Shown here: positions 1 through 47,288 of the stretch, in pieces
Layout: each line of letters opens with the position of its first letter
Position numbering within the stretch: the first letter of the stretch is position 1
Virus record (IMG/VR): IMGVR_UViG_3300021351_000001
Span: 1-47,288 of that record
Length of the DNA: 47,288 nt
Reading direction: 5' to 3' (one strand)
From: a virus
Position numbers and translations under genes: made by a program
The notes under the pieces: model-generated
Seen by the model: only the letters and a program-made list of their open reading frames with translations
Told to the model about the DNA's origin: nothing
Database searches by the model: none

Positions 1-123
1 CAGACAAACGTTACATAGTGGTCATGGTGCGGAATATGTATCAACCGGATCTAAACGCAGATGGAGCTCCTAGGGTAGCAGATATAGCCGATAGTGTTGA
101 GGAGTGCATGCGCAGGATTGATG
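1..123. repeat. Terminal direct repeat, left copy
   Basis: These 123 bases are identical to 47166-47288. An exact overlap at the two ends is what an assembler leaves when a circular or circularly permuted genome is opened at an arbitrary point. A reading frame continues smoothly across the junction (GTG at 47162 into position 1), which supports circular closure over a true short terminal repeat. Confidence 0.95.
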
Positions 124-8570: not shown

Positions 8571-9238
8571 GGTGCAATTGCTCCTTTCTTAGGCTTCTTG
8601 TCTGCCCACTGCTTGTAGCGGGCTGCGAAATTCTCAGGACTGACATACTGAGGATCAGCTTCCTTGAGATAGGCCTCGAACCACTTTGCCGTTCGCTCAG
8701 GACCATGCGCATCATGCACCGGCTTCATGGCTTTAGCAAGTCTACCAGCAGGAGGTTCGCCGATATGTTCTTTCCAAAGATCAAAGTACGGCGTAAGCCA
8801 CGTAATATTATTCTTTTCTTTTCTTTTCTTAATGCTTGAGGGTCGCTTGAGCGAAGCTTGAGCCTTGCTTCCAGCTTGCTTAAGCCCAGCTTGTAAAGTT
8901 CTGGCTTTACCGCCTTTACGACCGGCGTTTACTCTTTGGTTGTGAGTCAATTTTAACTCTTCTAACTGCTCTAAAATAAACTCAATATACCACCCTTTTT
9001 CAGGTGCTTGAAGCAAAGCCTGGCACCGCTTAAGCTCTGCTAAAGCATTGCTAAAGCTCTGCTTGTCGGCACCTATCAAAGCGCACAGATAGTCTTCGTC
9101 ACCCTGGATGTACCCGCCCTTAATCCAAAGCTTTGCCATTATGTCAATCAAGATACCTTTAGCGGCATGAGAACAGATCTGTATATCACCACCAAGCCAG
9201 TCGGTAGGGCTAAATTTGAAGTATGGAAGATTGTTCAT
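8567..9238 (-). CDS. Replication initiator-like protein (lambda O/DUF1376-type)
   Basis: A 223-residue protein. Residues 1-90 (begins MNNLPYFKFSPTDWLGGDIQ, then HAAKGILIDIMAKLW) look like the DUF1376-type winged-helix N terminus common in phage replication proteins. A basic linker at about 105-145 (GRKGGKAR, KKRKEK) leads to a C-terminal helical domain (WFEAYLKEADPQYVSPENFAARYKQW, given here in part: WFEAYLKEADP). The part of the gene coding for the linker contains two arrays of 11-bp direct repeats and an A+T-rich purine tract, the arrangement of the lambda origin inside gene O. Directly followed by the helicase. I infer that it binds the repeats and brings in the helicase. Confidence 0.8.
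   Translation of the reverse strand: MNNLPYFKFSPTDWLGGDIQICSHAAKGILIDIMAKLWIKGGYIQGDEDYLCALIGADKQSFSNALAELKRCQALLQAPEKGWYIEFILEQLEELKLTHNQRVNAGRKGGKARTLQAGLKQAGSKAQASLKRPSSIKKRKEKNNITWLTPYFDLWKEHIGEPPAGRLAKAMKPVHDAHGPERTAKWFEAYLKEADPQYVSPENFAARYKQWADKKPKKGAIAP
8803..8833. other. A+T-rich homopurine/homopyrimidine tract beside the iterons
   Basis: On the plus strand the sequence runs TAATATTATTC and then three TTTTC units to CTTAAT. It is the most A+T-rich stretch of the initiator gene and abuts the first 11-bp array. Origins of lambda type have an easily melted segment in this place. Confidence 0.55.
8834..8899. repeat. Iteron array A: six 11-bp units
   Basis: Plus-strand units begin at 8834, 8845, 8856, 8867, 8878 and 8889, exactly 11 bases apart: GCTTGAG three times, then GCTTCCA, GCTTAAG and GCTTGTA. 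The spacing of 11 is not a multiple of three, so the pattern cannot come from the protein sequence. One unit per helical turn is typical of initiator binding sites. Confidence 0.8.
9006..9071. repeat. Iteron array B: five units on an 11-bp grid
   Basis: Related words lie on an 11-bp grid: GCTTGAA at 9006, GCTTAAG at 9028, GCTAAAG at 9039 and 9050, GCTTGTC at 9061; the grid position 9017 is degenerate. The array is separated from array A by about 106 bp. Both are inside the initiator gene. Confidence 0.7.
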
Positions 9239-27251: not shown

Positions 27252-27785
27252 TTAGGGTAGTTCTTGAATCGTTACAGTGTTCGTGCTGTCAGTCTTAGAG
27301 ATCCCGTATATAGCGCCTTGAAAGGCCCCGTCTCTTTCACTGAACCCGTCACCTTCAACAAACAACGTGATTCCCGAGTTTGTGGCCGCTGTGTTGTTGA
27401 ATGCGAGAGAAACATTCGTGACTATACCAAGGTTCTGAATGTAATACTTACCCCGCTTCTTATTGACCATCTTCCAGGTTACAGTGTTATCGGTCACTGT
27501 GTTTGTGGTCGTCCAGGTAGGAGTGTTCGTATCAGTAGTTCCACCCACTATGGCCCAATAAAAACGGTATATATTGTTCGTATGTAACCGAATGTAATCA
27601 CCCTGAGAAAATGCTGTTGACGCTACCCATTCATTCGTGGTGTCCGGAGTGGTGGCCGGTAGAATCATTGCTGAACTACCAGGAACATCCACGGTGTACG
27701 GGTAGTAGTTGTCACCAGCGTTCAGCCTTAAAGCAATCAGCATTGCCACCATTACGACTACTGCACACACACTTAACTTCTTCAT
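27252..27785 (-). CDS. Secreted or surface protein with signal peptide
   Basis: A 177-residue protein. Residues 1-24 are a standard signal peptide: KK, a hydrophobic core (LSVCAVVVMVAMLIALRL) and an N-x-A end before GDNYYPY. The rest is beta-rich (Thr, Asn and Trp common) and holds a segment WVASTAFSQGDYIRLHTNNI, recalling carbohydrate-binding repeat folds seen in tail proteins. It lies in the tail/fibre part of the operon, so it is probably tail-associated, yet a signal peptide would send it out of the cytoplasm (see findings). Confidence 0.65.
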   Translation of the reverse strand: MKKLSVCAVVVMVAMLIALRLNAGDNYYPYTVDVPGSSAMILPATTPDTTNEWVASTAFSQGDYIRLHTNNIYRFYWAIVGGTTDTNTPTWTTTNTVTDNTVTWKMVNKKRGKYYIQNLGIVTNVSLAFNNTAATNSGITLFVEGDGFSERDGAFQGAIYGISKTDSTNTVTIQELP

Positions 27786-27793
27786 ACTATCTC

Positions 27794-28651
27794 CTATTCT
27801 TTTGCTGTTATGAAATTACCACTATCATCTACCAAAAACGAAGGTGTATTTGTTCCAGAAGGAGGGGGTATGTATTTATAAGGGTGAGTATCAGGTAAGT
27901 TACCTGTAAGCCCCCACTTGTGCGCACAGCGACCGACACACTTGTTAATTATAGTGATGTCCCCGGTTGCCAGTACAAGAGCTTCGCCTATCCAACCGTC
28001 AGGCCTCTGTGATTCGCCGCGATTGCTGAACAGCCTGAATTCTGATGGAGTACCTATTTTTCCGGTATAATTGTCTGTTGCGCTATTGATGCCATCTACC
28101 TGGACGTATATTGTACCAGCACCAGTAAAATCTGCCACTGCTACATAAATAGACGGACCAAAGGAGTTTGTGCCGTATTCAGGATCGCCAGAAGCCATTC
28201 CGGCATTATTGAATCTGGCCATAAATTGAGGTGAGGAGCCGGACTCAAGTTGATAATCATTATCGGCGTTGAATGAATGTATTGAGTCATTGTTTGAGTC
28301 AATAGCATCTATACCTGCCACCATGATCACTGTAATATCTCCCGATGAAGGCACGGGGAAGTTGTTTTCTTCAAAGTAATCGTCACCGTCCATATCAATT
28401 ACGTTTATGCCATTGTGCGACCGGACACCGCTTTGCGGATTGCCGTTACCAGTGAGATGGTTGCCGTTTCCGCTCATATCGGTTGCTATAACAGCAGTGC
28501 CACTAGGCGCAATGGAAGCATCGTACCAGCCAATAAGGACATCTGTACTTAATTCGGCAGGTGTAAAGGGCTGTATCACAGTAACCATGTCTTGAGCCAT
28601 GCCGGACCATGCCAACAGTGCCGTCAGTATCATAATAATATGTTTCAACAT
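27794..28651 (-). CDS. LamG-like protein with signal peptide
   Basis: A 285-residue protein. Residues 1-19 form a signal peptide (MLKHIIMILTALLAWSGMA before QDMV). The mature part, with LIGWYDASIAPSG, TDMSGNGNHLTGNGNPQSG, INVIDMDGDDYFE and later EFRLFSNRGE and DGWIGEALVL, has the pattern of LamG/concanavalin-like jelly-roll domains that bind glycans. It lies between two other signal-peptide proteins of the fibre cluster. Host or capsule binding is likely. Confidence 0.7.
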   Translation of the reverse strand: MLKHIIMILTALLAWSGMAQDMVTVIQPFTPAELSTDVLIGWYDASIAPSGTAVIATDMSGNGNHLTGNGNPQSGVRSHNGINVIDMDGDDYFEENNFPVPSSGDITVIMVAGIDAIDSNNDSIHSFNADNDYQLESGSSPQFMARFNNAGMASGDPEYGTNSFGPSIYVAVADFTGAGTIYVQVDGINSATDNYTGKIGTPSEFRLFSNRGESQRPDGWIGEALVLATGDITIINKCVGRCAHKWGLTGNLPDTHPYKYIPPPSGTNTPSFLVDDSGNFITAKE

Positions 28652-28663
28652 AACTCAGAGTCC

Positions 28664-31141
28664 CTATGGTGGTGTTGTATTTGATTTACCATTGTAATAT
28701 GCCGAATCTTCACGTCCAACAAACCGATACAAATCCCATCCATCAGCACCCGTTCCTGTGAGATAAGATTCACCTACTGAACCAAAAGTCCACCCAACGC
28801 TGTCCCAAGCACAAGTATGACCCCCGACACCATCTTGAGCTATAAACAATGTATATGAAGCGCATGCCACATTGCTCGGTGTATTGATGTAGGCGTCATT
28901 CGTAAGCGTTATATACACATACTCGCCGTTATTGAAATCAATGTAGATGTTGGTGGGTCCACTATACGCATTGGTGTACCATGTGCTTGTTATGGTGCTC
29001 ACATTGTTGATTGCATTGTTTTGCATATCCAAAGAGGCACATCTGACAGGCTCATCAAACGTAACCCCAACAGGTACATTGGTTGCGGCAATCTGATTCG
29101 TGCCGTCGCAATACATAAGGCCATAATTCAACACGAATTGATTCGTATTGCCCATGCCTATGATGTCGTTACCCTGCATGTTCAAATCTTCAGAAATTGC
29201 GATGCTCTGTCCGTTTGTGATAGCGTCTATTTCGTTAACATAGGAAATTCCAGCCGACATTGTTAACCAAGGTGATCCAAACGCTAGGTCGTAAGTATAG
29301 GCAGCCGTAGGTGTCAATCCACCTTCCCACTCTGTGGCAGTGAAAGGGTTCAGAATTTTTAGTATCCCTCCCACAGCGTTGATGATTTGCACGTTTTGTG
29401 TATTGACATAAGCGTTCCGCCAATACAGAGAAGCTGCTCCTATATCGTTTGCATCGTCGGTCCCTGGTAGCACATCGGCCAAGTTCGTAATGGAATTATT
29501 CTGCGCATCCATATTGGCGCCAAAACTACTGGCTCCTGTGACCTCTAACGTCCCGTCTACGTCTAGTGTTGCCGAGGGGCTATTGGTGCCTATGCCCACA
29601 TTCCCATTAGTCAAGATCGTTAACAACATATCAGACGTTAAACTAGGCACAACCCCACCTCTATACGCAAATGACAGTGCTTGGTTTGCAGAATAGTCCA
29701 AGCCAATTGCCCATATATTTGTCGATGCAGAATTTTCAAATTCGATCCGCGTATCAGCATTCGCTAGGCTTGTCCTAATTCCTGTTCCGACAATATGCAC
29801 GTCACGGGCCGGTGTATTTATTTTGATACCAACATTGCCACTATCGTCTATAACTATGCCCTCTGAATCACCATCGCCACTGAGCCAGTTGTTGCCGGTA
29901 TCCAGCGACCCCGCAATAGCTAGATTAGTCGCTGTGCCATTAGCACTAAGAAGACGTAAACAATCATTGGTATCAACATAGTTTTTAGTGGTTGCGTCTT
30001 GTGCGGCTACAGGGCCGAGCAAGTTGGTAATGGAATTATTTTCCATATCCATATTGGCGCCAAAACTACTGGCTCCTGTGACATCTAAAGTTGTGCCTAT
30101 TGATGCGTTTGCGCTGATCAATGCTTCACCAAGAACGTGTAGCCGAGCCGTAGGGGCCTCGGTACCTATGCCAACGTACGGTAGGTCATTAGTAATCGAC
30201 AGAATACTAATCCCGGATCGTAGACTGGTAACGTTATCTGGTACCTGCAAATCTATTCGCGTTGATGTTCGTCCCAATGCCTCGTCCCAATCCGACTGCG
30301 ACAACACCTGAAGCCTCCATGCGTCGAAACTGCCAACTCGCCCTCTTAAATAGTCTATAGTGTCGCCATAAGAAAGAGGCCCGTCCTCATGGTAAAATTC
30401 AATATTGCTAGTATAATCGTCACTGTTTCCTAAAGTCAAATCTCCTGATATCGTGGTTCCTCCATTCACCACATCAACACTGGCCGTGCTTACGTAGATA
30501 TTTCGATATGCCAAACTTGAATCGCCTAAATCGCGTGTATCATCAGCATCAGGATCTATGTCGCTAGCGACTGTCCCGGAAATAGTAACATTGGATAGCG
30601 TTGCCAAGCCACCGATAGACACGTTATTCGCGAAAGATCCATTCGTTCCGTCAATGTTCGTGAAGTAGTTGATATCACTTCCGTTCATATTGATATCGTT
30701 GCTAACAGATATCCCGTCGGCTACATACAGGTTTGTAAAGTTTCCGTTGTCGCCATGAAGGATGTCGTTGCCCTGAAGGTCTATGTTTCCATTCATGGTC
30801 AATGAATTGATTTCAAGAGTCAAATCTATGTAACCCGAATCTATACGCTCACCGTTCCATGTCATATTGGAAATTGCACTTGAGGCCCCCACACCATTTA
30901 ACCAGTCTATTTGGCCTAGCCCGTTAGTCCACAAGTACAAAGCTTCAGCAAGCGGCGTACCGGCATCACTGTACATGGCATCAAGCCGGGTCAGCATTAA
31001 TAGCAGATTCGTGTTGATCAATCTATTGTCAAGTGGGTCTGCGTCCTCATAAAGAATAATCGCTGTGCCGTCAGAGTTCGTTGTCCAAGCAGAAGCAATG
31101 CTCGCGAAGCACATCAAAAGCAATAGTATCAGTTTCTTCAT
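28664..31141 (-). CDS. Tail-fibre-like protein with signal peptide
   Basis: An 825-residue protein with a signal peptide (MKKLILLLLMCFASIASA before WTTN). The body repeats fibre-type modules: LDVTGASSFGANMDMENNSI and LEVTGASSFGANMDAQNNSI about 180 residues apart, GNVGIGTNSPSATL, VGIGTEAPTARLHV, and ATTKNYVDTND. Modules of this kind are found in trimeric phage tail fibres, where they are followed by chaperone or knob parts. A signal peptide is unusual in a fibre. Most likely the main receptor-binding fibre, or else a secreted adhesin made in infected cells. Confidence 0.7.
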   Translation of the reverse strand: MKKLILLLLMCFASIASAWTTNSDGTAIILYEDADPLDNRLINTNLLLMLTRLDAMYSDAGTPLAEALYLWTNGLGQIDWLNGVGASSAISNMTWNGERIDSGYIDLTLEINSLTMNGNIDLQGNDILHGDNGNFTNLYVADGISVSNDINMNGSDINYFTNIDGTNGSFANNVSIGGLATLSNVTISGTVASDIDPDADDTRDLGDSSLAYRNIYVSTASVDVVNGGTTISGDLTLGNSDDYTSNIEFYHEDGPLSYGDTIDYLRGRVGSFDAWRLQVLSQSDWDEALGRTSTRIDLQVPDNVTSLRSGISILSITNDLPYVGIGTEAPTARLHVLGEALISANASIGTTLDVTGASSFGANMDMENNSITNLLGPVAAQDATTKNYVDTNDCLRLLSANGTATNLAIAGSLDTGNNWLSGDGDSEGIVIDDSGNVGIKINTPARDVHIVGTGIRTSLANADTRIEFENSASTNIWAIGLDYSANQALSFAYRGGVVPSLTSDMLLTILTNGNVGIGTNSPSATLDVDGTLEVTGASSFGANMDAQNNSITNLADVLPGTDDANDIGAASLYWRNAYVNTQNVQIINAVGGILKILNPFTATEWEGGLTPTAAYTYDLAFGSPWLTMSAGISYVNEIDAITNGQSIAISEDLNMQGNDIIGMGNTNQFVLNYGLMYCDGTNQIAATNVPVGVTFDEPVRCASLDMQNNAINNVSTITSTWYTNAYSGPTNIYIDFNNGEYVYITLTNDAYINTPSNVACASYTLFIAQDGVGGHTCAWDSVGWTFGSVGESYLTGTGADGWDLYRFVGREDSAYYNGKSNTTPP
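29481..29550. repeat. 70-bp direct repeat in the fibre gene, copy 1
   Basis: Matches 30021-30090 at 63 of 70 positions, exactly 540 bases (180 codons) apart and in the same frame. It encodes the VTGASSFGANMD module. DNA identity is higher than the surrounding sequence, so it may be a recent or recombining duplication. Confidence 0.85.
30021..30090. repeat. 70-bp direct repeat in the fibre gene, copy 2
   Basis: Second copy of the module repeat described at 29481-29550. Recombination between copies would remove or add exactly 180 codons and keep the frame. Confidence 0.85.
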
Positions 31142-31148
31142 ATCATCC

Positions 31149-31718
31149 TCATGTGGTTATGTCTGCCGTGCCGGTGTAAATACGCCCCAGAATCTCTGCC
31201 ATACAATAAACCGTCTTGGCTCCGCTTGTCGCTATATCCATTACTACGGTACCGCTAGCGTCCGAAATGACCTCATAATCAGCGTCGGCCTCAAGCTCTC
31301 GCATAAGTTCCCCGGTTGACACTGAATAATCAGTTTGCGGGTCCGGCTCTGAATACTCAGCATCAGCAATCCATGTACGAATGAGAAAGCGTTCAGCCAG
31401 ATTATTCCCGGCGGCATCTTTCACCTGGATAGTGCATGTTCCGGCGTTCCCTGTGGCATCGACAACGCTAACGGTGAGGTATGGAATAAGATCCTGAAGG
31501 GCAGCGGCGAGCTTTGCCAAGGTAACATTTGCATCAAGAATCTTGGCTGTGGTGACGGCATCATCTTTGATGTCTTCGGTGTCTAACAAATCAGTAGTTT
31601 CTACTGTAACCAAAGGCTCGCCCAGGTTGTGAAGCCGTTCCTTAGATATTCGTATCAACTCGCGACTGTCTTCTGTGAATGTCTGGTTTCTGGTTACTGT
31701 GCAGTTAAGTATGCTCAT
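31149..31718 (-). CDS. Tail-region protein, probable fibre attachment or base
   Basis: A 189-residue protein. The N-terminal part is helical and then has the ladder IKDDAVTTAKILDANVTLAKLA, similar to the repeats in the next gene upstream; the C-terminal half is beta-rich (LTVSVVDATGNAGTCTIQV; GTVVMDIATSGAKTVYCMAE), like an immunoglobulin-like or phage tail domain. It lies between the collar-type protein and the fibre, where a linking protein is expected. Confidence 0.6.
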   Translation of the reverse strand: MSILNCTVTRNQTFTEDSRELIRISKERLHNLGEPLVTVETTDLLDTEDIKDDAVTTAKILDANVTLAKLAAALQDLIPYLTVSVVDATGNAGTCTIQVKDAAGNNLAERFLIRTWIADAEYSEPDPQTDYSVSTGELMRELEADADYEVISDASGTVVMDIATSGAKTVYCMAEILGRIYTGTADITT

Positions 31719-31725
31719 TGCTCAC

Positions 31726-32523
31726 CTATGTCTTGATTATAAACATCACGTATGCGTTTTTAGGTCTTGTCTCGTTACCGCCGGTGCTGTTCGTGCTTCT
31801 TGTGCCAGTGGTGTTTTCTGTTTGCAGTGGGTTTGATCCGGAGCTTGTAGACCCTACATTATAGGTATGTGAGTGGCTTTTGAAGGCATCTTCCTGCACC
31901 GAACCTATATTGTCTCCTGTGTTACCGCCTGTATTCATGGCAGTACGGCTTGCAGCATCGGGATCATTTCCTGCTGTATTATCCCATCCTCGAAGAAAGC
32001 GTCCACGGAAATCAGGAACATTAAAGGTAGTGCTACCGTTGCCTTCACCGAATGTGTCACCTATTACGGCGTAGAGGTCAGCATAAGTCGTTCTGTTCAG
32101 TTCAGAGCCATCACACTCGACCCACCCCGAAGGCGCTGAGTTGGTGCTCCATATCTTGATTTCTCCGGTCAGTGTTGCAGCACCCGCCGCCAGCTTGGCA
32201 GCGGTAATAGACGAATCAGGGATCTTGTTTACCGTTACAGCTCCGTCGGCAATCTTGGCCTCAGTGACATTGGCATCTTTGATCTTAGCTGTTTCTACGG
32301 CATTGGTGCCCAACTTGGCAGCAGTGATAGCAGCATCAGGCACATACGCATTGCCGTTGCCGTCGGCAGCGATCGTCGTTCCATCAAACAAGCTTGAGGC
32401 GTCACCATCAAAAGCGTTGGATGTGAATCTAGCCAGCGTAACAAGATCTTCCAAGTTGGCTCCTGTTTTGATCCCACTAGCCCCGTCAAATGTGTATCCC
32501 TTTACTAAATTGTCACCAGCCAT
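31726..32523 (-). CDS. Tail collar/fibre protein (Phage_Collar domain)
   Basis: A 265-residue protein. Residues 50-120 show an AxLGTNAVETAKIKDANVTE ladder of short repeats. The C-terminal half has the collar-domain pattern: IWSTNSAPSGWVECDGSELN, TYADLYAVIGDTFGEG, TTFNVPDFRGRFLRGWD, then GNTGDNIGSVQEDAFKSHSH and RPKNAYVMFIIK. This domain forms a beta-rich tip in tail fibres and collars, often binding metal by the HxH. Directly follows the tail protein of 684 residues. Probably a receptor-binding protein. Confidence 0.85.
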   Translation of the reverse strand: MAGDNLVKGYTFDGASGIKTGANLEDLVTLARFTSNAFDGDASSLFDGTTIAADGNGNAYVPDAAITAAKLGTNAVETAKIKDANVTEAKIADGAVTVNKIPDSSITAAKLAAGAATLTGEIKIWSTNSAPSGWVECDGSELNRTTYADLYAVIGDTFGEGNGSTTFNVPDFRGRFLRGWDNTAGNDPDAASRTAMNTGGNTGDNIGSVQEDAFKSHSHTYNVGSTSSGSNPLQTENTTGTRSTNSTGGNETRPKNAYVMFIIKT

Positions 32524-32526
32524 GAG

Positions 32527-34581
32527 TTACCTCCCTCGTTTTGCAAAATGGCTTTGCTGTGCCGTCAGTATGATTGACTTGATTTTTAATGAACCCCTTG
32601 TGTTGCTAACCAGCACAGAGATACCTGTTTGGTTGGTCATCCTAGGAATGAATCGCAAGGTATGCGTTTCCCAAACATTCAGATAAATACCATCAGCCCT
32701 GGCAAACAACGTGGACTCAAGAAGGCCGGGAGCTGTGATTCCGTGAATAAGGGCATCATTGACCGTGAAATAGGTATATCCATCTTGAACTGTCAACTGT
32801 CTGTCAGAAAGGAACAATGTGTAATCCTGCCTGTGGGGTTCCTGCCAATCGTCATCTATATTCGACCTATCCCAATCGGGGAGATTGTTGACATCGTACA
32901 CTCGTTGATCATACGTGATATCTGTAAATACAACGGTCTCAGTGTTGTAATCTTCAGACTCATAGGAAACTGATATTTTGGGATCTTTGTGTTCAAACAA
33001 CAATTGACAGCGGCCCCATCTCTTAGGGCTCGCCTCATCACCATGTTTGAGAAAGCGGGTCCGCATCTCGCTTTCGACAGGGAATATCTCATCTGTCGCA
33101 TATGCAGTGTATTCTGTGAAGTAATCTGTATCTGTAACATCTTGGTTCAAACTTTCCTTCACAGCAATGAAGGCGCGTTTAACTCCGGCGATCTCCTTGT
33201 ATACACGTTGCCCTTCCTCGTACAGTGTTGTCGCACTGTAGAGCGGGATGTCATCCCAAATGTCCTCACTGTCCCAGGGATCATTAGTCATCATTTTACG
33301 AGTGCCACCATCGGTACCAAGGAAGTAAAGCTTTTCAGCTTCTACAAAGAATCGTACAGGCTTCAGTAAGTCGCTTTGCCAAACACCAACCCATGCACCG
33401 CTTCCACCATTGGCCACATAATCATAGACAAGCACAGCATCATTGACTGTTGAACTGTCCAGGGGCACAGCGAACATCAGATAATTATCGTAGAACACGC
33501 CGCAAGCATTGTGAGCATAGTTCCAGTTGATACGGTTAATCAAAGGTTGAATCTTGGCTGATAGCGTTGTTTCTCTCCCGAGGATACTTCCTTCAGCGGT
33601 TCTGCGCACAGAAGTTATCCCTTTATATGACAAGAAGCTGATTTCTTGTCCGTGAACAGCAAAAGCGTTTGGGCCTACCATTCCTTCAGATTCACTAATA
33701 CTATCCTTAGACACATACTGTGAAAGCACTTCCCCTCCTGCGACATCGACATAAGAGTTGAGTCCACGCAGTGCTGAAACAGATCGCTTCTTAAAGACGA
33801 TGACATAATCATCCTGCCATTGCACAACGGCAGTAATTTCGTCTCCATCTCCCTTTCTGATCGAAAAAAGTTGGTCTGTCCAGTCGTAGGTGTCAATATC
33901 AAGTACGTCTGAAACGTATATATCATCATCCCCCTTTACCACAAGCAATCGCCCAAATACATAAACACCCTTGTCACCGGTAGGTATCTGGCCTGTTTGG
34001 CCGGGATTCGTGAAGCTCACAAAACCCGCATCCTGGTCTGCACCGTCCCAATACAGAGGGTTGTTCCCATCGCTGCGCAGCATCACCAGCTTGTTGTGTG
34101 CCTGCACAAACTGAATAGTCTCGGAAGTTCCTATGGCTTCGGCGGTAGATATGCTGCTTGTATATCCTTTCGTATGGACATACACAGAACCATCAGACAC
34201 AAGAATTTGCCTGTATGCTGCATCGTCAGTAAACCTAAAGAAACTTGTACCCTGAATATCGCCGTAAACAGACCCAACCCATTGCCACGGAAACCAGAAA
34301 CCTGTGTGCGTCGCGTCATTGTAACGAGCATTATCCTGGTTGAAGTAGAACGTCTCGTTGAATCCTTCTGTGAGCACTCTATAAGCCCTATGGAAGCCGG
34401 GCCTGGTCTCAGCATCGCCCGAACGTATAACGATGTTCTTGCCCCACCTATACTCGTTGGCGGCCAAGTCACCAAGCAAGTTCATGCCGCCCGAAAAGTC
34501 GGTTTGTCCGTCAACCATTTGCGATTTGCGATCTGCTCTCATTAAAACGTCTTTTTCGTCGTCGTCCCTGTGTTTTGCCAT
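32527..34581 (-). CDS. Tail tube/nozzle-like structural protein
   Basis: A 684-residue, beta-rich protein with MVDGQTDFSGGMNLLGDLAA and RSGDAETRPGFHRAY at the N terminus, features I associate with short-tail nozzle or stabilisation proteins that follow the head-tail adaptor (P22 gp10-type position), and with QFVQAHNKLVMLRSDGNNPL and WDGADQ, a propeller-like blade pattern. The start lies 40 bases inside the end of the preceding gene. Assignment rests mainly on gene order (adaptor before, fibres after) and on these blades. Confidence 0.65.
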   Translation of the reverse strand: MAKHRDDDEKDVLMRADRKSQMVDGQTDFSGGMNLLGDLAANEYRWGKNIVIRSGDAETRPGFHRAYRVLTEGFNETFYFNQDNARYNDATHTGFWFPWQWVGSVYGDIQGTSFFRFTDDAAYRQILVSDGSVYVHTKGYTSSISTAEAIGTSETIQFVQAHNKLVMLRSDGNNPLYWDGADQDAGFVSFTNPGQTGQIPTGDKGVYVFGRLLVVKGDDDIYVSDVLDIDTYDWTDQLFSIRKGDGDEITAVVQWQDDYVIVFKKRSVSALRGLNSYVDVAGGEVLSQYVSKDSISESEGMVGPNAFAVHGQEISFLSYKGITSVRRTAEGSILGRETTLSAKIQPLINRINWNYAHNACGVFYDNYLMFAVPLDSSTVNDAVLVYDYVANGGSGAWVGVWQSDLLKPVRFFVEAEKLYFLGTDGGTRKMMTNDPWDSEDIWDDIPLYSATTLYEEGQRVYKEIAGVKRAFIAVKESLNQDVTDTDYFTEYTAYATDEIFPVESEMRTRFLKHGDEASPKRWGRCQLLFEHKDPKISVSYESEDYNTETVVFTDITYDQRVYDVNNLPDWDRSNIDDDWQEPHRQDYTLFLSDRQLTVQDGYTYFTVNDALIHGITAPGLLESTLFARADGIYLNVWETHTLRFIPRMTNQTGISVLVSNTRGSLKIKSIILTAQQSHFAKRGR

Positions 34582-35300
34582 GCACCTACTTCACCGAAGT
34601 CACCAATAGGCATAATCACATTTTCTCTTCCCTCTTGAGTTATCGTCTTTGACTTTGCATTGCCAAGCAACTGAGCCCAATCGCCTCTTCGGGCTTGACC
34701 ATCCCAAGACCGAAGCTCGTCAGCCATATAAGCCTGTATAACCGGCAGAGCATCAGGAATGGTCCACTCAAGCACTCGGTAGTCAGTAGGTGTCGCGGTA
34801 GGATCAGAAGAACTGTACGAGCTTTCTACCGTTGCCTCTACAAAGTTCTTCGTTGCCAAGATCCTGTAGCTTTGAACATCGTCATTCGGATTGACTTTGA
34901 TTCTGGTCAGTCCAGCCGCCGTATCGGCCAGCTTGTGATATCTCCCACTTGTGATTCCTGTCTGATCGCCCCTGAGCATAGCTGATATCTCGTTTTCAGC
35001 CCACACAAAGGAGTCGTTATCAAGAGACGAACTATTCACTACGACTACGGCCAGCACCATATCCACAGAAGAAGTAAAGGTGATAATGCCGGTACTGGTA
35101 TCATAACTTGAAACATAAGTTGAATCAGAAGAAAGGAACTGATCAATCTTTTTGTTTGCCCACAACTCTTCATCAAAGATGACGCGGCCAACTTTGTTGT
35201 AACGAGAAATGGCTTCAAGCAATATCTCATTTTGGATGGGGTCGCGGGGCAGACCCAACCCGTCTGACACTGCACCTTGTATGAGTTCCAATACCGTCAT
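34542..35300 (-). CDS. Head-tail adaptor-like protein
   Basis: A 252-residue protein. MTVLELIQGAVSDGLGLPRD, then RYNKVGRVIFDEELWANKKI, is an all-helical N terminus like that of podovirus head-tail adaptors (P22 gp4-like position); the centre is beta-rich with YHKLADTAAGLTRIKVNPND; the C-terminal helix is VIQAYMADELRSWDGQARRG. It lies one step after the capsid genes and overlaps the tail protein. I infer it plugs the portal and joins the tail. Confidence 0.65.
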   Translation of the reverse strand: MTVLELIQGAVSDGLGLPRDPIQNEILLEAISRYNKVGRVIFDEELWANKKIDQFLSSDSTYVSSYDTSTGIITFTSSVDMVLAVVVVNSSSLDNDSFVWAENEISAMLRGDQTGITSGRYHKLADTAAGLTRIKVNPNDDVQSYRILATKNFVEATVESSYSSSDPTATPTDYRVLEWTIPDALPVIQAYMADELRSWDGQARRGDWAQLLGNAKSKTITQEGRENVIMPIGDFGEVGAWQNTGTTTKKTF

Positions 35301-35367: not shown

Positions 35368-35988
35368 CTACGGTTGAATTGTATACGTTCCGCTCAGCAC
35401 ACTGTTGCCGGCAGTGACCGGAATATTGAGGTTCACAGGCATGTCCCGTTTACCGGTGAATATATTCCTCAAAGCCATCTGAACGGTACTCGACGCCTTC
35501 AGGGGCACAGTTACATTATCCGTCGCGTCCACCACATACACCGGATCGTCCGCAGCCGCAGTAAGGGCTGTTTCCAAGGTATATGACGTGAAGTTCGTAG
35601 TGCTGTTGTAAGACACAATAGTCTTGATCTGACTGAGCTGATATCCTGAAGTCGCATTGCGTACCAAGATATAATCAGTTGCAGCAGTGGGGGTGAATCC
35701 ACTCCAACTATTGCTGCCTTGAGTATAGACGTTGATGTTCGTAGTAGCCGAAACAGCGGCCTCCGCAGAACTAATATCGCGTGCACGATAGATAGTCATA
35801 TTGGCATTTGTAGCCACGTCAACCATCATTGACTCGTTTAGAATATAGCCTCTCTCACCGGGTATTGTGACGCTGGCAGCAGCCGCCGGGGATCCCGTAG
35901 TAGAGAAGGTTTTCATCTGAGGAGCAGCAATGACGCAAATAACGATTGCGGCAAGAACAACCACAGAAGCGATGATTTTCTTATTCAT
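35368..35988 (-). CDS. Structural-region protein with N-terminal signal or anchor
   Basis: A 206-residue protein between the capsid and the head-tail adaptor. Residues 1-22 (MNKKIIASVVVLAAIVICVI and an A-A end) form a signal peptide or anchor; the remainder is beta-rich and Thr/Ala-rich with VTIPGERGYILNESMM and TVQMALRNIFTGKRDMPVNL. In many phages a capsid decoration protein lies in this place, which suits the beta-rich fold, but the hydrophobic N terminus is not expected for a head protein. Flanked on both sides by GC-rich hairpins, which hints at separate message control. Confidence 0.65.
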   Translation of the reverse strand: MNKKIIASVVVLAAIVICVIAAPQMKTFSTTGSPAAAASVTIPGERGYILNESMMVDVATNANMTIYRARDISSAEAAVSATTNINVYTQGSNSWSGFTPTAATDYILVRNATSGYQLSQIKTIVSYNSTTNFTSYTLETALTAAADDPVYVVDATDNVTVPLKASSTVQMALRNIFTGKRDMPVNLNIPVTAGNSVLSGTYTIQP

Positions 35989-36054: not shown

Positions 36055-37197
36055 TTACACCATGTTTCCGAAGTTATTTAGCTGCTTCGTCGGATCAGCC
36101 GGATCGTAGTTATTCGGCAGATACTCAGTGACAGGAGCCTTGATAACAAGAGCCCAATCAGGGTTAACCATAGCAATCTGATATGGCTGTAGATAACCGA
36201 CACTCATCGAGTAACCGGTCTTTGTGATGTCCTGGGTTTTGGTCCTGGGTTTTGAGAACAGACCCTTACCATTCATAGGCATCCAAGTGAATGACTTTGC
36301 ACCAAAGCACAGGCAACTATGGATCTTACCATAATTAGCGCGCTTGTTCTCACCGCCGAAGTCCTCCGTAAACGGAGAATCATCTATCACGAAAACAAAC
36401 CCTGCGTACTTGTAAGTTGTGTAGTTCTCAAGGCCCTTAATAGCAGTCTGCATTCCACCTGCGATTGCGGATGTTATGAGTCCATTGTCAGTATCCCGCA
36501 TAAGATCATTCCATGCGGAAATAGAGAGAACACAAACATAGCTACCGTTGATCTTACGAGCGCCAGCAAGTTCCAATTTAACATAAGCTGAACGGATATC
36601 ACTCCACTTCAACGTGTCAGTCTCATCAAGGTCTGCAAATGAAGCTTTACCATTTGCGTAGTAGTGAGGAGCTGCATAGAATGTGAAGCTTGTACTGTAC
36701 AGCGTAACCGTTGCCTCTGCTGACTGATCGAACGCAGTAGTAGCCACAGTTGACGTTGAACTCCATACACCTGGAGTCATCCTGCCAACAAGCATCGCGT
36801 TTTGAACAAGTTCATGCTTACGTCTTTTGAGGGCCAGCGGCATATCCTCATCAATCCACTCCTTGATCCTTAGCCAGGAAGTCATTGTCAGAGTCGTAGG
36901 AACATCAATATATTCCTGCAAGAACTCGACCGGAACGGTGATTTGATCTACACCAAGCTGAGCGCCTGAACTAGGATCAGATCCAGCACCGCCTGGGGTG
37001 GCCATAGTTTGAGGTCTGCGCAGCCTTTGCTTGCGCGTGAATTTGCTGTATTGTCCCGATTCCATCGGGATACCGTCTACTCTGCCATACGTCTCATTGA
37101 GTAGAGCGGTTTCGTAATCCCGCCTTTCCAGCAGCTTCTTGTTGAGATATTCCTCAACCAATGCTGCGGAACTAATACCAGTAATTGTATTAGCCAT
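36055..37197 (-). CDS. Major capsid protein (N4-gp56-like, HK97 fold)
   Basis: A 380-residue protein following the scaffold. The N terminus (EEYLNKKLLERRDYETALLN) and segments IPMESGQYSKFTRKQRLRRP, ITVPVEFLQEYIDVPTTLTM, KRRKHELVQNAMLVGR and a C-terminal KAPVTEYLPNNYDPADPTKQ fit the N4-gp56 type of HK97-fold capsid protein as I know it. Length is right for the group. It should be the most abundant virion protein, forming the shell from hexamers and pentamers. Spacing to the scaffold is 15 bases and a hairpin follows the stop. Confidence 0.85.
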   Translation of the reverse strand: MANTITGISSAALVEEYLNKKLLERRDYETALLNETYGRVDGIPMESGQYSKFTRKQRLRRPQTMATPGGAGSDPSSGAQLGVDQITVPVEFLQEYIDVPTTLTMTSWLRIKEWIDEDMPLALKRRKHELVQNAMLVGRMTPGVWSSTSTVATTAFDQSAEATVTLYSTSFTFYAAPHYYANGKASFADLDETDTLKWSDIRSAYVKLELAGARKINGSYVCVLSISAWNDLMRDTDNGLITSAIAGGMQTAIKGLENYTTYKYAGFVFVIDDSPFTEDFGGENKRANYGKIHSCLCFGAKSFTWMPMNGKGLFSKPRTKTQDITKTGYSMSVGYLQPYQIAMVNPDWALVIKAPVTEYLPNNYDPADPTKQLNNFGNMV

Positions 37198-37212: not shown

Positions 37213-38349
37213 TTACACGAGAGCGCCATCCCTGATCAACTGAGTGATTTGATCGTTAATATCAGCGGCGCTTCGCTCGTTTGTTGTTGATTTAATTGGA
37301 GCAGAGGCCGGTAGAACTGAATTCTGTTGAGCAATCTTTTGCTCAATCTGTCTTTTCTGTTCCTGCAACTGCGCCAGTTGACTTTCAGACGAAGGAACTT
37401 GAGAGGCCGCGAACGCTTCCTTGATTATTCTCGCATGGGTATGAGGGTTCGACATCAAATAATTGACATAGCTTTGATCGTAGACGCCTTGTTCTAGGAT
37501 CTGACCAGTGTCAGGATTTAACTTGCCCAAATACTTAGCATCCCACTGAAGCGAGAACTTAGACAAAGCAGAATTCTCATTCATAAATTCCGGCATTTCT
37601 TCTTTCACTCGATTGATTTGCTCTTGATATGCCGACTGTAAGGATGCTTTTTCTTCTTGCTGTTTACGCTCTTGCGTCTCAGCGTCCATGCGTTTCTGGT
37701 ACTCATTAGCATGCACAATTTGCATGGCATTACTGATTTCAGCAGCAATATTTGCACTTGCTTCTGGGCCGTAAATGCCTTGCTGCGCATTCGCGAGTAC
37801 CTTAGTAAGATCCTGGGAGTTAAAAGCTGTTCGGAGAGCTTCACGCGCATTTTTGATCGCCATAGCGTTATCAAGCTCGGTGTCAAACCCGCCTTCTTTG
37901 GCTTTTTCAAGTGCTGACACCACTTGCTCAACGGTCATAGTTGGACCAGAAGGCTCTGTTGGAGCGTTCCTGGCTTCCTCTATTTCCTTGATACGACGCT
38001 CAACTGCTTCTCGTGCTTCTCTCTCTTCTTTCAGCTTCAACCGCATTTCCTTGAAAGCATGTTGGTCAGGGGTCTCGACTACTTTCTCAGGTTCATTCTG
38101 AGTTTGAGTTTGATCCTCGACAACTTTGGTTTCTTTGGTTGCGGTCTCCTCGATCTTCTCTCCTTGAGGTGTTTCCTTGGCGTCCTGGTCGCCGGTTGTC
38201 GCAGGAGATTCAGGGGCTTCAGTCCCGGCGGCAACTTCTTGCATCAAATCCATTTCGCTATTTCTGATAGTGTCCTGGAGTATGGCGTCAATGTCTGCTG
38301 CCGTTCTTTCGTCCAATACCTCTGTCTGTGTCTGTGCCTCTTCTGTCAT
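37213..38349 (-). CDS. Scaffolding protein
   Basis: A 378-residue acidic protein just before the capsid gene, the standard scaffold place. Residues 1-95 are Glu/Thr/Gln-rich and unordered; residues 95-140 form a strong coiled coil (KEMRLKLKEEREAREAVERR); the centre is helical with many Ala and Gln, and the C terminus is a helix and short basic end, as used for capsid contact. ATG 38349 with AGGAAA upstream is taken in place of an earlier frame start without a site. Confidence 0.8.
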   Translation of the reverse strand: MTEEAQTQTEVLDERTAADIDAILQDTIRNSEMDLMQEVAAGTEAPESPATTGDQDAKETPQGEKIEETATKETKVVEDQTQTQNEPEKVVETPDQHAFKEMRLKLKEEREAREAVERRIKEIEEARNAPTEPSGPTMTVEQVVSALEKAKEGGFDTELDNAMAIKNAREALRTAFNSQDLTKVLANAQQGIYGPEASANIAAEISNAMQIVHANEYQKRMDAETQERKQQEEKASLQSAYQEQINRVKEEMPEFMNENSALSKFSLQWDAKYLGKLNPDTGQILEQGVYDQSYVNYLMSNPHTHARIIKEAFAASQVPSSESQLAQLQEQKRQIEQKIAQQNSVLPASAPIKSTTNERSAADINDQITQLIRDGALV

Positions 38350-38443
38350 TTCGTCTGTTTCCTTTCTGGATAGGGTCCAGAACCCGTCACGCATTCAAAG
38401 GCATGCGGTGCCTGCCAAGCACTTGTGGCGTGCTGTGCCATTC

Positions 38444-38743
38444 CTACCATTCGTTACCATCTGGTATGGTGGTAGATTGTTTTCCTGCTGCCGGAACATC
38501 AGGACCGGGTATTCCATTCAGGTCCGATTTACAGTTCTGGTAGCCGATCATAAGGTCTTTGGTGTTGCGGTCGGATCTAACGCAACCAAGAATGCGTGAT
38601 ACAAGCTGGTAGTCAAGATGCACCATGAGTTTATTCCATAACTCAGTGTCGCGCCACTCCTTCAAGACTTGGCGTTCGGTCTGATTAAACTCAACTTCCC
38701 TAAACTCAGGAAGACTTGCTTTCTTTTTTCGCTTGAACAGCAT
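38444..38743 (-). CDS. Small head-region protein
   Basis: A 99-residue protein beginning MLFKRKKKASLPEFREVEFN, basic at first, then helical (LKEWRDTELWNKLMVHLDYQ) with a flexible Gly/Pro/Thr C terminus. It overlaps the end of the portal gene by 38 bases and is followed by 94 non-coding bases before the scaffold. The role is unknown; small genes between portal and scaffold are often assembly factors. Confidence 0.6.
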   Translation of the reverse strand: MLFKRKKKASLPEFREVEFNQTERQVLKEWRDTELWNKLMVHLDYQLVSRILGCVRSDRNTKDLMIGYQNCKSDLNGIPGPDVPAAGKQSTTIPDGNEW

Positions 38744-40667
38744 TTTTCTCCTTCATCTCTTCAATCTTGTCAGCATTTTCGACCGCGAGCTTTTGAACTT
38801 GCTCAAGTTCTGTGTCTTGCTGATCATTGGAAACAGCGATCTGTTTGAGGCTATCGGTGAGATTCTGTAGTACCTGATAAATAGGCGGTTGCCCCTGGGG
38901 GCCTGCCTGGTTAGGATCTATCTTCATCAGGTTTGCAAGGTCAGGGTTGGCATAGGTCAAAGCATACTGCACTCCGGCAGCAATATCTTGAGGTGCCACG
39001 TTCAAGTATTGAGCCGCCCAGTCTATCGCTGCTTGATTCTGCATGAATTGAAGTTCAGGATTAGATGTCTTCTGGCTGGTAGCCGGAATAATCAGCCATT
39101 GAACGTCGTAGATTTCTATAGGAGCGGTACCTTCTAGTTCTCTGCCGTTGATTATTGGTAAAGGAATTCGTCTACTCTTGAGATCATTCCAAAGCATCAT
39201 ATACAGCTCTTTGTCGGGATCGTTGAACCTTTCGACAGAAGCGGACGAAATATTGCCTTGCTTGGCATCCTCGCTGCGTTGTTGAGTAGCTGTTTTTTCC
39301 AGCTTACGGGATTGAGTTACTTCTGCGTCGTACAGAGATGATCCTGCTCCGGCCCTGGCCGCCACTGTGCGTCGGCGAGCGTCAACTTCAAAATCAAACG
39401 AGTTTGGAGGCTGCGGAAGCGTTGCCGGGGTTATATTTGCCGGAAGCACTGTACCTGGCTTAATCTTGATATTTTGAGGATTGGTCCCTTCGCCATTATC
39501 CTGAAACAACATATTGCTTGCAAAATCGGCCCAAATAAGCTTTTTCCGGGTCATCGTCGTGGCAATAAGCTGATCATCCATGCAGGTTTCGCCTAGCCCT
39601 CTGGTATCGTACCAGTGAGGCGATCTATTCTCATAACGATGCTGAATTAGGGGCCACGGTTTATCTTTTCCAATTTGAAGCAATTTTCTTGTTACCGGCT
39701 CTCTGCCTTCTGCATCAGCAATAGCCAACTCTGCCATGAGTACATCATCTTGAAGCTCTTCATAGACATCATCTTCCTTCCAGACAATCATCTGCATCAT
39801 CTTTTCAGGAACATCTGGACATACATAAGAAATTATTTTCTGATTCTTTTCGAGCTTCAAACCAAACTCATCTTGGTGTTTGAGATCCCATTCGCTTGCA
39901 AGATGACATATTTCCCAAATGACTATCGAATTATGACTGTAATCACTTACATTCAGCCCAATTAACTCTTCCCGCCTTTTCAGAGCGTTTCCTTCGTTCC
40001 ATGCAGACTCGGCAGGGTTATCAGCGTTCGGGGCAAGCCTGTCCAGAACCTTGTCGACGTTGATCCAACCTTCTTCTTTCTTATCTTCAAGCTGCTTTCT
40101 GCTGAACCTGCTGACAAAACAAACTCGTTCTGAATGTATGGATACAGGGACTTTAGCGTCTACTGGAACAATAACATCCTGGGGGTCTATTGTTTCGAAA
40201 CTTGGGATTTCAGTCCCAAACATGTCATTGTAAATGGGTTTAACCTTGTCAACGGCGAATCCACGACAGTTCTTGGTATCAGACGCCTGCTCACGCTTAC
40301 GCCGATAATCTATGAAGTGTCGCAGGTATGTATCGAAAGCCCTTTGGGTCTTCATTGTCAGATCGTTAGGGATACCCTCTTGAAGAGGTATGAAATAGCA
40401 CAATAGGGGCGCATTGACCATCATGCTGATTTCCTGATCAACCTTGTCTCGAACAACGTCGTCAATCAGGGGCTCAACAGGATTAGGGGCATCTGGATAG
40501 GGTTTGTTCTTGTTGTTGCGCTCACCAAGCCTGCGCTTTTTGATCTCATCGTCTTTGTAGGCCCAATCCTTACGCGCTTCAAGATCGTTCTCAACGTCTT
40601 CGATGTACGGTGCCATCGTTCTATTCGGATCGTCAGATGCCATAATAAAAAAAGGGATACCAGCCAT
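38706..40667 (-). CDS. Portal protein
   Basis: A protein of up to 653 residues, in the portal position between terminase and scaffold. It has an N-terminal acidic region (EDVENDLEARKDWAYKDDE), PLIDDVVRDKVDQEISMMVN, and IDPQDVIVPVDAKVPVSIHS, VCFVSRFSRKQLEDKKEEGW and a long helical C terminus with coiled coil, the usual portal order (wing, stem and crown). The ring docks to the terminase and is the channel for DNA. ATG 40667 or 40643 (MASDDPNRT) may start it; neither has a good ribosome site. Confidence 0.85.
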   Translation of the reverse strand: MAGIPFFIMASDDPNRTMAPYIEDVENDLEARKDWAYKDDEIKKRRLGERNNKNKPYPDAPNPVEPLIDDVVRDKVDQEISMMVNAPLLCYFIPLQEGIPNDLTMKTQRAFDTYLRHFIDYRRKREQASDTKNCRGFAVDKVKPIYNDMFGTEIPSFETIDPQDVIVPVDAKVPVSIHSERVCFVSRFSRKQLEDKKEEGWINVDKVLDRLAPNADNPAESAWNEGNALKRREELIGLNVSDYSHNSIVIWEICHLASEWDLKHQDEFGLKLEKNQKIISYVCPDVPEKMMQMIVWKEDDVYEELQDDVLMAELAIADAEGREPVTRKLLQIGKDKPWPLIQHRYENRSPHWYDTRGLGETCMDDQLIATTMTRKKLIWADFASNMLFQDNGEGTNPQNIKIKPGTVLPANITPATLPQPPNSFDFEVDARRRTVAARAGAGSSLYDAEVTQSRKLEKTATQQRSEDAKQGNISSASVERFNDPDKELYMMLWNDLKSRRIPLPIINGRELEGTAPIEIYDVQWLIIPATSQKTSNPELQFMQNQAAIDWAAQYLNVAPQDIAAGVQYALTYANPDLANLMKIDPNQAGPQGQPPIYQVLQNLTDSLKQIAVSNDQQDTELEQVQKLAVENADKIEEMKEKNAVQAKKESKSS

Positions 40668-40921: not shown

Positions 40922-42502
40922 TCACGTACACCAGCCCCACCGATCATTATTTCCAACCCCCTCTCTCATAACTCTTTGCACATCTTTGAAATACTCTTTT
41001 GGCGATCCGGTAGCAAGTAATTGCTCTTCATAATTGGAATAAACCTTGGTTTCCTGCATCTGATAGCACAAATGTACTAGAGTATCCAAGCGGTCTGGCG
41101 AGCCTTCTTTCCGCTTTTTAGCTTCCTGCTTGGGTTCTATTCGGATCCGGTTATTGTCATCGTTCCGCATGACGTATCGTCGTTGTTGCATCTGCTTAAT
41201 AAGAATATCATCTCTCGGCAGAATCAACTGACCTTCGTGGAGCATCTTCTTGAGATGCCAGTGCATTTCAGCGTAGCGGTCAACGAAGTCCTTTTTCTGC
41301 AAACCTGGGGTATTCGGGTTGATTCTTTTGATCGGCCAAGACGCATCTATCATTTCTGAAATGATGCCTGCCCCCAAGCCCCCGTTATCTCCTTCGATCC
41401 ACTCCGGCCTAAGCTGCCAACGCTTGAAAAGCTCTATATACTTTGCTGCTTCTACTGTCGGAGCCACGTTGCCGCTTCTGTGCCAAGCAACAAACGGGTG
41501 AACCTGGTTGCCAACCCGGACGCCAAACACTAGCTCATCGCCGCCACCGGAAAAGTCACAGAACGCCTTTCTTTCGCCTCCAAGCTGTGGCAAGGTACCA
41601 GACATAGCTTCCACAGCTTTCTGCATGTCTACTTCATCGAAGACCATCATGGTCCCGGATCTGAAGAACTTGGCCTTCAGAAAAGAGTAAATGAACGGGT
41701 GATCTGGTCCGAATTTCCTGAGATATGCTTCTCTTTTCCTTTTCTTTTCCCCGGTAGTCAAGTGCGGGCACATCTCCCAATCAATCACAAATGGAATAGT
41801 TTCTCCCTGCCACTTCCATTTAGTGGTCCAAATCCCCTCGGTATTCATGCAGGCATCATAGAAAGAGCCTGAATCTTCCCCGGTTGTCGAAATGTAAAGC
41901 CTCACTGTGGGGTCACAACGGACAACAGCTTCGTATATCTCTTCAGATACAGACTTTCCCTCATCCACGATGATCAACAGCGGACAGAAAATGTTCCGGC
42001 CCTTGTCATCAGTCTTATTTCGCTCGTGATACCCTTCGAACCGCTCACCTTCCTTTGTAACCCTGATAAGTATGGTGCTACCCTCTAGCCCATTGACAGA
42101 AGGCAGTGTGATCTTGTCGTTCGTTATTTTCCAATTCGGGTGAAACTTTCTCGACATATCCCTGATAGCCGGCCACAACTGCTCCTTGATCTGATCTTCC
42201 GACTTCGACGTAATCACCACCTGGGAACTCGGAAACGCAGCGGCAAAACTCAATGCCAGGATCGGGACAGTGAAGGAAGACTTCCCGCTTTCATTACACG
42301 TAGCAACGGCCACATTGGCCCCTGGACGCCAGCACGCATCCCAAACCGCTTGTTGCCACGGATAAGGCTTCATCACATGGTAATGCTTAGCCTGAACTAC
42401 CGGTGACTTGGCTTTCGAGAAAACACAGTTGGTCCCCTCAACTACCCTATCGCCGTACTGCTCGAACCCTGTAAGTCCCTCGGATGGTGGTATCCCTTCC
42501 AT
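40922..42502 (-). CDS. terL: Terminase large subunit
   Basis: A 526-residue motor. The N-terminal ATPase has Walker A ATCNESGKSS at residues 67-76, in which the usual Gly is Glu71, Walker B PLLIIVDEG with Asp180-Glu181, and the coupling motif RLYISTTGE near 201. The C-terminal RNase H-like nuclease has FCDFSGGGDE with Asp316 and WIEGDNGG with Asp372. It packs DNA into the prohead and cuts it. It is separated from the portal by a promoter and small gene, and overlaps the gene upstream by 61 bases. Headful packing fits the circular permutation. Confidence 0.93.
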   Translation of the reverse strand: MEGIPPSEGLTGFEQYGDRVVEGTNCVFSKAKSPVVQAKHYHVMKPYPWQQAVWDACWRPGANVAVATCNESGKSSFTVPILALSFAAAFPSSQVVITSKSEDQIKEQLWPAIRDMSRKFHPNWKITNDKITLPSVNGLEGSTILIRVTKEGERFEGYHERNKTDDKGRNIFCPLLIIVDEGKSVSEEIYEAVVRCDPTVRLYISTTGEDSGSFYDACMNTEGIWTTKWKWQGETIPFVIDWEMCPHLTTGEKKRKREAYLRKFGPDHPFIYSFLKAKFFRSGTMMVFDEVDMQKAVEAMSGTLPQLGGERKAFCDFSGGGDELVFGVRVGNQVHPFVAWHRSGNVAPTVEAAKYIELFKRWQLRPEWIEGDNGGLGAGIISEMIDASWPIKRINPNTPGLQKKDFVDRYAEMHWHLKKMLHEGQLILPRDDILIKQMQQRRYVMRNDDNNRIRIEPKQEAKKRKEGSPDRLDTLVHLCYQMQETKVYSNYEEQLLATGSPKEYFKDVQRVMREGVGNNDRWGWCT

Positions 42503-47161: not shown

Positions 47162-47288
47162 GTGACAGACAAACGTTACATAGTGGTCATGGTGCGGAAT
47201 ATGTATCAACCGGATCTAAACGCAGATGGAGCTCCTAGGGTAGCAGATATAGCCGATAGTGTTGAGGAGTGCATGCGCAGGATTGATG
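47162..47288 (+). CDS. Small cysteine-rich protein, start of gene (continues at 1)
   Basis: GTG 47162 with GGAGG at 47151-47155 begins the chain VTDKRYIVVMVRNMYQP, which runs on in frame at position 1 of the window and ends at 383. The first 42 codons lie here. See the entry at 1-383 for the rest. Confidence 0.75.
   Translation, partial: MTDKRYIVVMVRNMYQPDLNADGAPRVADIADSVEECMRRID
47166..47288. repeat. Terminal direct repeat, right copy
   Basis: Identical to 1-123. The unique genome length is therefore 47,165 bases if the molecule is circular. Confidence 0.95.

Follow-up and report, generated by a model that had tools for sequence, protein, structure and literature searches.

The window analysed here spans all 47,288 bases of the IMG/VR virus record IMGVR_UViG_3300021351_000001, and its minus strand carries a late gene cassette resembling that of phage P22. 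The cassette comprises genes for terminase, a probable portal, a probable scaffold, capsid, a 206-amino-acid (aa) protein, a protein in the adaptor position, a gp10-like hub, a 265-aa Collar-domain protein, a 189-aa protein (p189), proteins of 825, 285 and 177 aa, and further late genes. Our subject is a set of proteins in this cassette that begin with predicted Sec-type signal peptides. Three of them are adjacent: an 825-aa fibre-like protein (28664..31141), a 285-aa protein of LamG-like (jelly-roll lectin) type (27794..28651) and a 177-aa protein with a weaker signal (27252..27785). The first-pass annotation had credited these three with signal peptides, and they hold up as real open reading frames (ORFs) on the minus strand with Sec-type N termini. 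Cleavage is predicted after MKKLILLLLMCFASIASA in the 825-aa protein, leaving WTTNS; after MLKHIIMILTALLAWSGMA in the 285-aa protein, leaving QDMVT; and after MKKLSVCAVVVMVAMLIALRLNA in the 177-aa protein, leaving GDN, with the site LNA↓GDN (the arrow marks cleavage) placed by homology. A fourth signal peptide, overlooked in that annotation, starts the 206-aa protein encoded directly after the major capsid gene (35368..35988), where cleavage after MNKKIIASVVVLAAIVICVIA would leave APQMK. The 825-, 285- and 177-aa genes belong to a tightly packed operon with spacings of 3–12 bp, and intergenic distances stay at or below 12 bp from the hub gene through the 177-aa gene and just past it. Each of the three has a purine-rich or Shine-Dalgarno-like stretch upstream of its first ATG, weakest for the 285-aa gene.

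Signals were called with a rule-based caller (K/R n-region, uncharged h-core, A-x-A-type site) and a weight matrix, both written for this analysis. By these rules the 825- and 285-aa proteins satisfy what is expected of Sec substrates cleaved by signal peptidase I (SPase I), and the 177-aa protein does so marginally. Its signal is the weakest because an Arg lies in the c-region near the site, and cleavage before GDN is backed mainly by homologues. The rules recovered 27 of 28 known textbook signal peptides. Among 45 E. coli coding sequences they called four, namely two genuine signals, the membrane protein NhaA and, falsely, CarB; in 19 control phage loci they called 4 of 478 genes. In the window the rules called four of its 65 genes and, among 130 further ORFs, two. 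Shuffled versions of residues 2–30 scored as high as the real sequence in 0% (825 aa), 0% (285 aa) and 2% (177 aa) of trials. At the sequence level, cleavable export of the signal-bearing proteins is well supported.

Capsid and hub profiles picked up roughly 16 separate loci in viral contigs (numbered with the prefix L), related closely or moderately closely, and, in a genome collection, one related locus on a Spartobacteria metagenome-assembled genome (MAG) contig. Across this clade, the rules found no signal in terminase (0/12; 40922..42502 in the window), portal (0/17; 38706..40667, conserved in 17 loci), scaffold (0/15; 37213..38394), major capsid protein (0/16; 36055..37197), the 252-aa protein in the gp4 adaptor position (0/16; 34542..35300), hub (0/14; 32527..34581) or p189 (0/11; 31149..31718), the p189 count leaving out the window's needle-position protein, which had been misassigned among the 12 listed. 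Signals occur on accessory proteins, a pattern that runs through the clade. The post-capsid protein has one in 13 of 17 members (alignment A9; an automatic tally gave 12/14, the gene caller having missed L010, with its GTG start, L017 and L019), and the 177-aa family in seven of eight (six by rule, L014 by eye). Six of 14 needle-position proteins bear a signal (L002, L005, the L007 fragment, L013 and L014 by rule; L010 by eye), as do all five fibres encoded between terminase and portal (L002, L003, L015, L016 and L019), a gene absent from the window, and nearly all fibre-like genes downstream of p189. As entered in the statistical comparison, core and accessory families split 0/101 versus 26/38, which chance would hardly produce (p about 1e-19, a number that is only indicative, the loci being related). 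The first-pass picture of three adjacent fibre-region proteins is accurate for those three and too narrow for the trait, which includes the capsid-adjacent protein and extends beyond the window.

Some calls outside this set were discarded or stand apart. Post-capsid calls in L063 and L064 were judged by eye to be scorer false positives, with a high score and no real hydrophobic core. A general trait of P22-like phages was rejected, as none of five distant relatives has a signal in the region. Two distant P22-like loci, L033 (6528-6968) and L038 (6581-6997), each have in their fibre region, beside a LamG-like gene, a single gene for an fn3-like protein with a signal, possibly an independent case. 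Downstream of its fibre genes, L014 encodes a 117-aa protein with a lipoprotein-type signal (LCGC; 8696-9049), perhaps a spanin.

On the capsid tree, the post-capsid signal extends from the Spartobacteria locus via L045/L046 to the window clade and is missing in the L015/L016/L017/L019 clade and the outgroups, which requires at least two changes; one loss or two gains would account for its spread between the Spartobacteria locus and the window. Most members, at about 35% identity, keep the cleavage region, in which position −3 is small, −1 is Ala and +1 is usually Gly; the rest of the signal peptide varies while this A-x-A↓G-type region stays. In orthologues that lack the signal, translation starts at the predicted mature N terminus, from a ribosome-binding site of its own, as in L003 (AIA↓GMEVLSKD) versus signal-less L015 (MNVIDRGM) for the post-capsid protein; the 177-aa family has one signal-less member, in L019. 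Cleavage would therefore give the same protein as direct translation, and the mature forms, compared by sequence, likely have the same binding partner. Homologues starting after the hydrophobic part had been named in the first-pass annotation as evidence against export. Some relatives do start there. As the signal persists in 13 of 17 post-capsid proteins together with a conserved cleavage motif, we take it to be genuine and open to being switched on or off. Internal re-initiation was rejected as a source of a cytoplasmic post-capsid form: several members have a Met beside the site, with no properly spaced Shine-Dalgarno before it, and no signal-bearing post-capsid gene has an internal start with a good ribosome-binding site near the cleavage site. 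A need for disulfides was also rejected, the cysteines in mature post-capsid proteins being as few as, or fewer than, those in signal-less ones.

The 265-aa Collar-domain protein (31726..32523), which has no signal in the window, lies after the hub like P22 gp26 and, in our alignment and in comparison with P22, has a constant N terminus and a variable C-terminal tip. The first 45 residues, conserved in this family, would hold the virion if they work as in P22 needles (PMC3741392). Where signals occur (L002, L005, L010, L013, L014 and the L007 fragment), they sit directly before the conserved ADNF-type start: SLFA↓ADNFLRGF in L002 corresponds to MADNFVRGY in signal-less L003, and the longer alignment sets ...SLFA↓ADNFLRGFQFDG against MADNFVRGYTFDG. 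Among needle-position genes with a readable next gene, a small signal-bearing gene follows directly in all five signal-bearing cases (L002, L005, L010, L013 and L014) versus none of eight signal-less ones (p 0.0008). The encoded proteins are about 140 aa long, often with a lysine-rich C terminus, and loosely similar to one another; they are possible exported assembly partners.

The signal-bearing proteins were also compared with known folds and families. The 206-aa protein is a predicted beta-sandwich (predicted local distance difference test, pLDDT, 91) for which fold searches returned only common beta-sandwich or jelly-roll arrangements and nothing decisive. It had no match in 50,697 phage records, its family was seen only beside phage capsid genes, and one of 17 members matched a decoration family (E 0.008). 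The 177-aa protein has a small, decoration-like outer beta frame with a glycan-binding-type module inserted at residues 49–109. This module matches the receptor-binding domain of the Pam1 cyanophage tailspike both by family profile (E 6e-8) and by structure (Z 8.3 over 56 residues, 34% identity); beyond it, the fold search of the model gave only common beta-sandwich/jelly-roll arrangements. Four of eight family members match phrog_20658, a head decoration family (best E 4e-6), the window protein over the inserted module only. Direct comparison with the 101-aa protein of L042 showed no similarity. Position or PHROG match suggests that the 206- and 177-aa proteins may be capsid or neck decoration.

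A LamG-like pattern had been noted in the 285-aa protein, and this is plausible: the protein itself has no Pfam or PHROG match, and its signal-bearing L014 counterpart is Laminin_G_3 (E=2e-24). Its relatives lie within large Verrucomicrobiota ORFs. The Pseudanabaena phage Pam2 (GenBank ON014754.1, 57604-58311) encodes a 26% identical LamG-like relative labelled as a neurotoxin, almost certainly a misannotated lectin-type fold. The fibre modules proposed for the 825-aa protein are borne out by fibre-type repeats that match cyanophage tail fibres, and a short post-signal module (TNxxGTxIILYxDxDxANLLLVNTN) is common to it and the L009 and L010 fibres; the protein as such had no relatives in the viral contigs searched. 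The L014 LamG protein and a 465-aa protein of L020 match PHROG virion structural proteins.

As to the source, an exact 123-bp repeat at both ends of the window (1-123 and 47166-47288) points to a genome that is probably complete and circularly permuted, and the integrase (PF00589), RecT and DnaB-type helicase that it encodes indicate that the phage is probably temperate. By cassette order and hub matches the phage groups with the P22-like podoviruses. The order terminase, portal, scaffold, coat, adaptor, hub and needle agrees with the positions in the P22 record, the portal, scaffold (which, as in P22, follows the portal gene and precedes the capsid gene) and adaptor being identified in the window by position, with the family tally in addition for the adaptor. 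In tblastn the hub hits proteins labelled 'phage stabilization protein' or head closure Hc3 (E down to 5e-11). The named relatives of the terminase with best coverage are from Akkermansia phages (26–28% identity). Among 387 Verrucomicrobiota genomes searched, three others contained a small number of more distant capsid relatives. Hosts of the clade are probably Verrucomicrobiota because of these relatives, the Akkermansia-phage terminases and the Spartobacteria locus, the last on a 28 kb MAG contig of a kind for which a binning error is possible. Elsewhere in the window, two genes contain repeat arrays: that for a 491-aa DUF6745 protein (5905-7380, −) has a 440-bp array of 12-bp repeats encoding (SEIYDEIN)-like units, and that for a 276-aa protein (2480-3310, +) has a degenerate tandem array encoding the Trp/Ala-rich repeats (WDAAWAARAAAR) that make up most of the protein.

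With moderate confidence, we interpret the signal-bearing proteins as exterior virion proteins that are exported and processed and then join virions at lysis. Indirect sequence evidence points to their membership of the virion; when and where they attach, we infer. The first-pass annotation had left two options, surface proteins made by the infected cell or lysogen and tail parts added outside the cytoplasm, and the evidence favours a form of the second, virion parts that reach the particle via export. Virion parts are favoured over a surface role because the post-capsid, needle-position and 177-aa families all have syntenic signal-less orthologues that start at the mature N terminus. More tentatively, this lineage of tailed double-stranded DNA (dsDNA) phages may split its assembly between DNA-filled heads in the cytoplasm, Sec-matured exterior proteins and final assembly only at or after lysis. 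Exterior accessory proteins (capsid-adjacent, fibre, lectin-like and, in some members, needle-position) would be made with cleavable Sec signals, translocated, and then trimmed by signal peptidase. Terminase, scaffold, portal, capsid, adaptor and hub would remain in the cytoplasm and yield DNA-filled heads, while the exported proteins would acquire their fold in the periplasm or outside and bind to sites already in place once lysis mixes the compartments. P22 tailspikes can be added in vitro to particles without tailspike. The decoration protein Dec of phage L attaches from outside to mature P22 capsids in vitro (PMC7602432). Given late addition of the Dec and tailspike types, exporting just the late-added exterior proteins, to join the heads at lysis, is a feasible scheme.

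Alternatively, the late operon could encode these proteins for work outside the virion, secreted by the infected cell or lysogen or displayed on its surface (as adhesins, superinfection exclusion proteins or lectins). Signal peptides combined with glycan-binding-type modules would suit such a role, as would the resemblance of the 285-aa protein to parts of large Verrucomicrobiota ORFs and a temperate, integrase-encoding phage. We consider it less likely: the genes are packed 3–12 bp apart inside a head-tail operon, the post-capsid gene constantly adjoins the capsid gene, the PHROG hits of members are to decoration and virion structural families, and signal-less orthologues with the mature N terminus occupy the same places. 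The N termini might instead be uncleaved membrane anchors, of inner-membrane accessory proteins or assembly intermediates or for membrane insertion at entry; the hydrophobic cores are strong, but short h-regions, the conserved small residue at −3 with Ala at −1, and orthologues that lack the segment entirely make this quite improbable. Least probable is that the signals were carried along when the phages recombined with host secreted-protein genes and are tolerated or weakly used while enough protein stays in the cytoplasm for assembly: host proteins too have the LamG-like domain and signals vary among needle-position orthologues, but signal and site persist in 13 of 17 post-capsid proteins over deep divergence, the 206-aa protein belongs to a family seen in phage capsid neighbourhoods only and lacks matches among the phage records, and losing a signal should be easy and yet is rare.

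Several points weigh against export followed by addition at lysis. The clade is known from sequences alone, the signal calls come from a home-made predictor, and the signal counts are not independent, the loci being related. Neither the 206-aa nor the 177-aa model has a decisive fold match, except for the module inserted in the 177-aa protein. In P22 the needle closes the channel as a DNA plug (PMC3741392), so that with an exported needle the heads would stay unplugged up to lysis; the window's own needle-position protein has no signal. Finally, signals are absent from the structural genes of the Akkermansia phages Chambord and Chantilly, and Verrucomicrobia phage P8625 likewise lacks the feature (PMC4642752). 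A rule for the host phylum was rejected on these grounds, and a host-wide need for exported structural proteins therefore does not exist.

In the open papers covered (most subscription journals and preprints lay outside the scope) we found no account of signal peptides on tailed-phage structural proteins as a clade trait, and the novelty of clade-wide exported structural proteins is provisional. Tailed phage assembly is usually regarded as cytoplasmic, and the clade, if our interpretation is true, would have a two-compartment assembly line. This would explain how virions can use folds with a possible need for periplasmic conditions, and metagenomic 'host' proteins predicted to be secreted would become candidate virion parts.

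A close comparison is with P22 and P22-like podoviruses, which share with the clade the order terminase-portal-scaffold-coat-small gene-adaptor-hub-needle-ejection and a hub akin to the 'phage stabilization protein'; the P22 parts are needle gp26, hub gp10, adaptor gp4 and tailspike gp9. The P22 needle, like the clade's needle-position protein, has a constant N terminus and a variable tip (PMC3741392). By the same rules, however, P22 genes lack signal peptides, whereas the clade has up to four or more signal-bearing accessory proteins. Decoration proteins (phage L Dec, T4 Hoc/Soc and lambda gpD) may resemble the 206- and 177-aa proteins, to judge by position or PHROG match, and Dec joins finished capsids (PMC7602432). 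The 206- and 177-aa proteins differ from them in being made with an export signal, and in sequence searches neither hit Dec, Hoc, Soc or gpD. Exported phage proteins include Sec-signal endolysins, signal-arrest-release endolysins and receptor-blocking lipoproteins such as T5 Llp. An endolysin with a Sec signal has been described (PMC8951688). Like the clade's proteins, exported endolysins and T5 Llp are late phage proteins that use the host Sec pathway, but they act on the envelope or receptor, outside the virion, unlike the virion parts proposed here. Filamentous phages have coat proteins with a signal peptide and are assembled and extruded at the membrane without lysis. Their virion proteins, as in our proposal, go through or into the membrane before assembly; the clade, in contrast, consists of tailed dsDNA phages with a capsid set of the cytoplasmic type.

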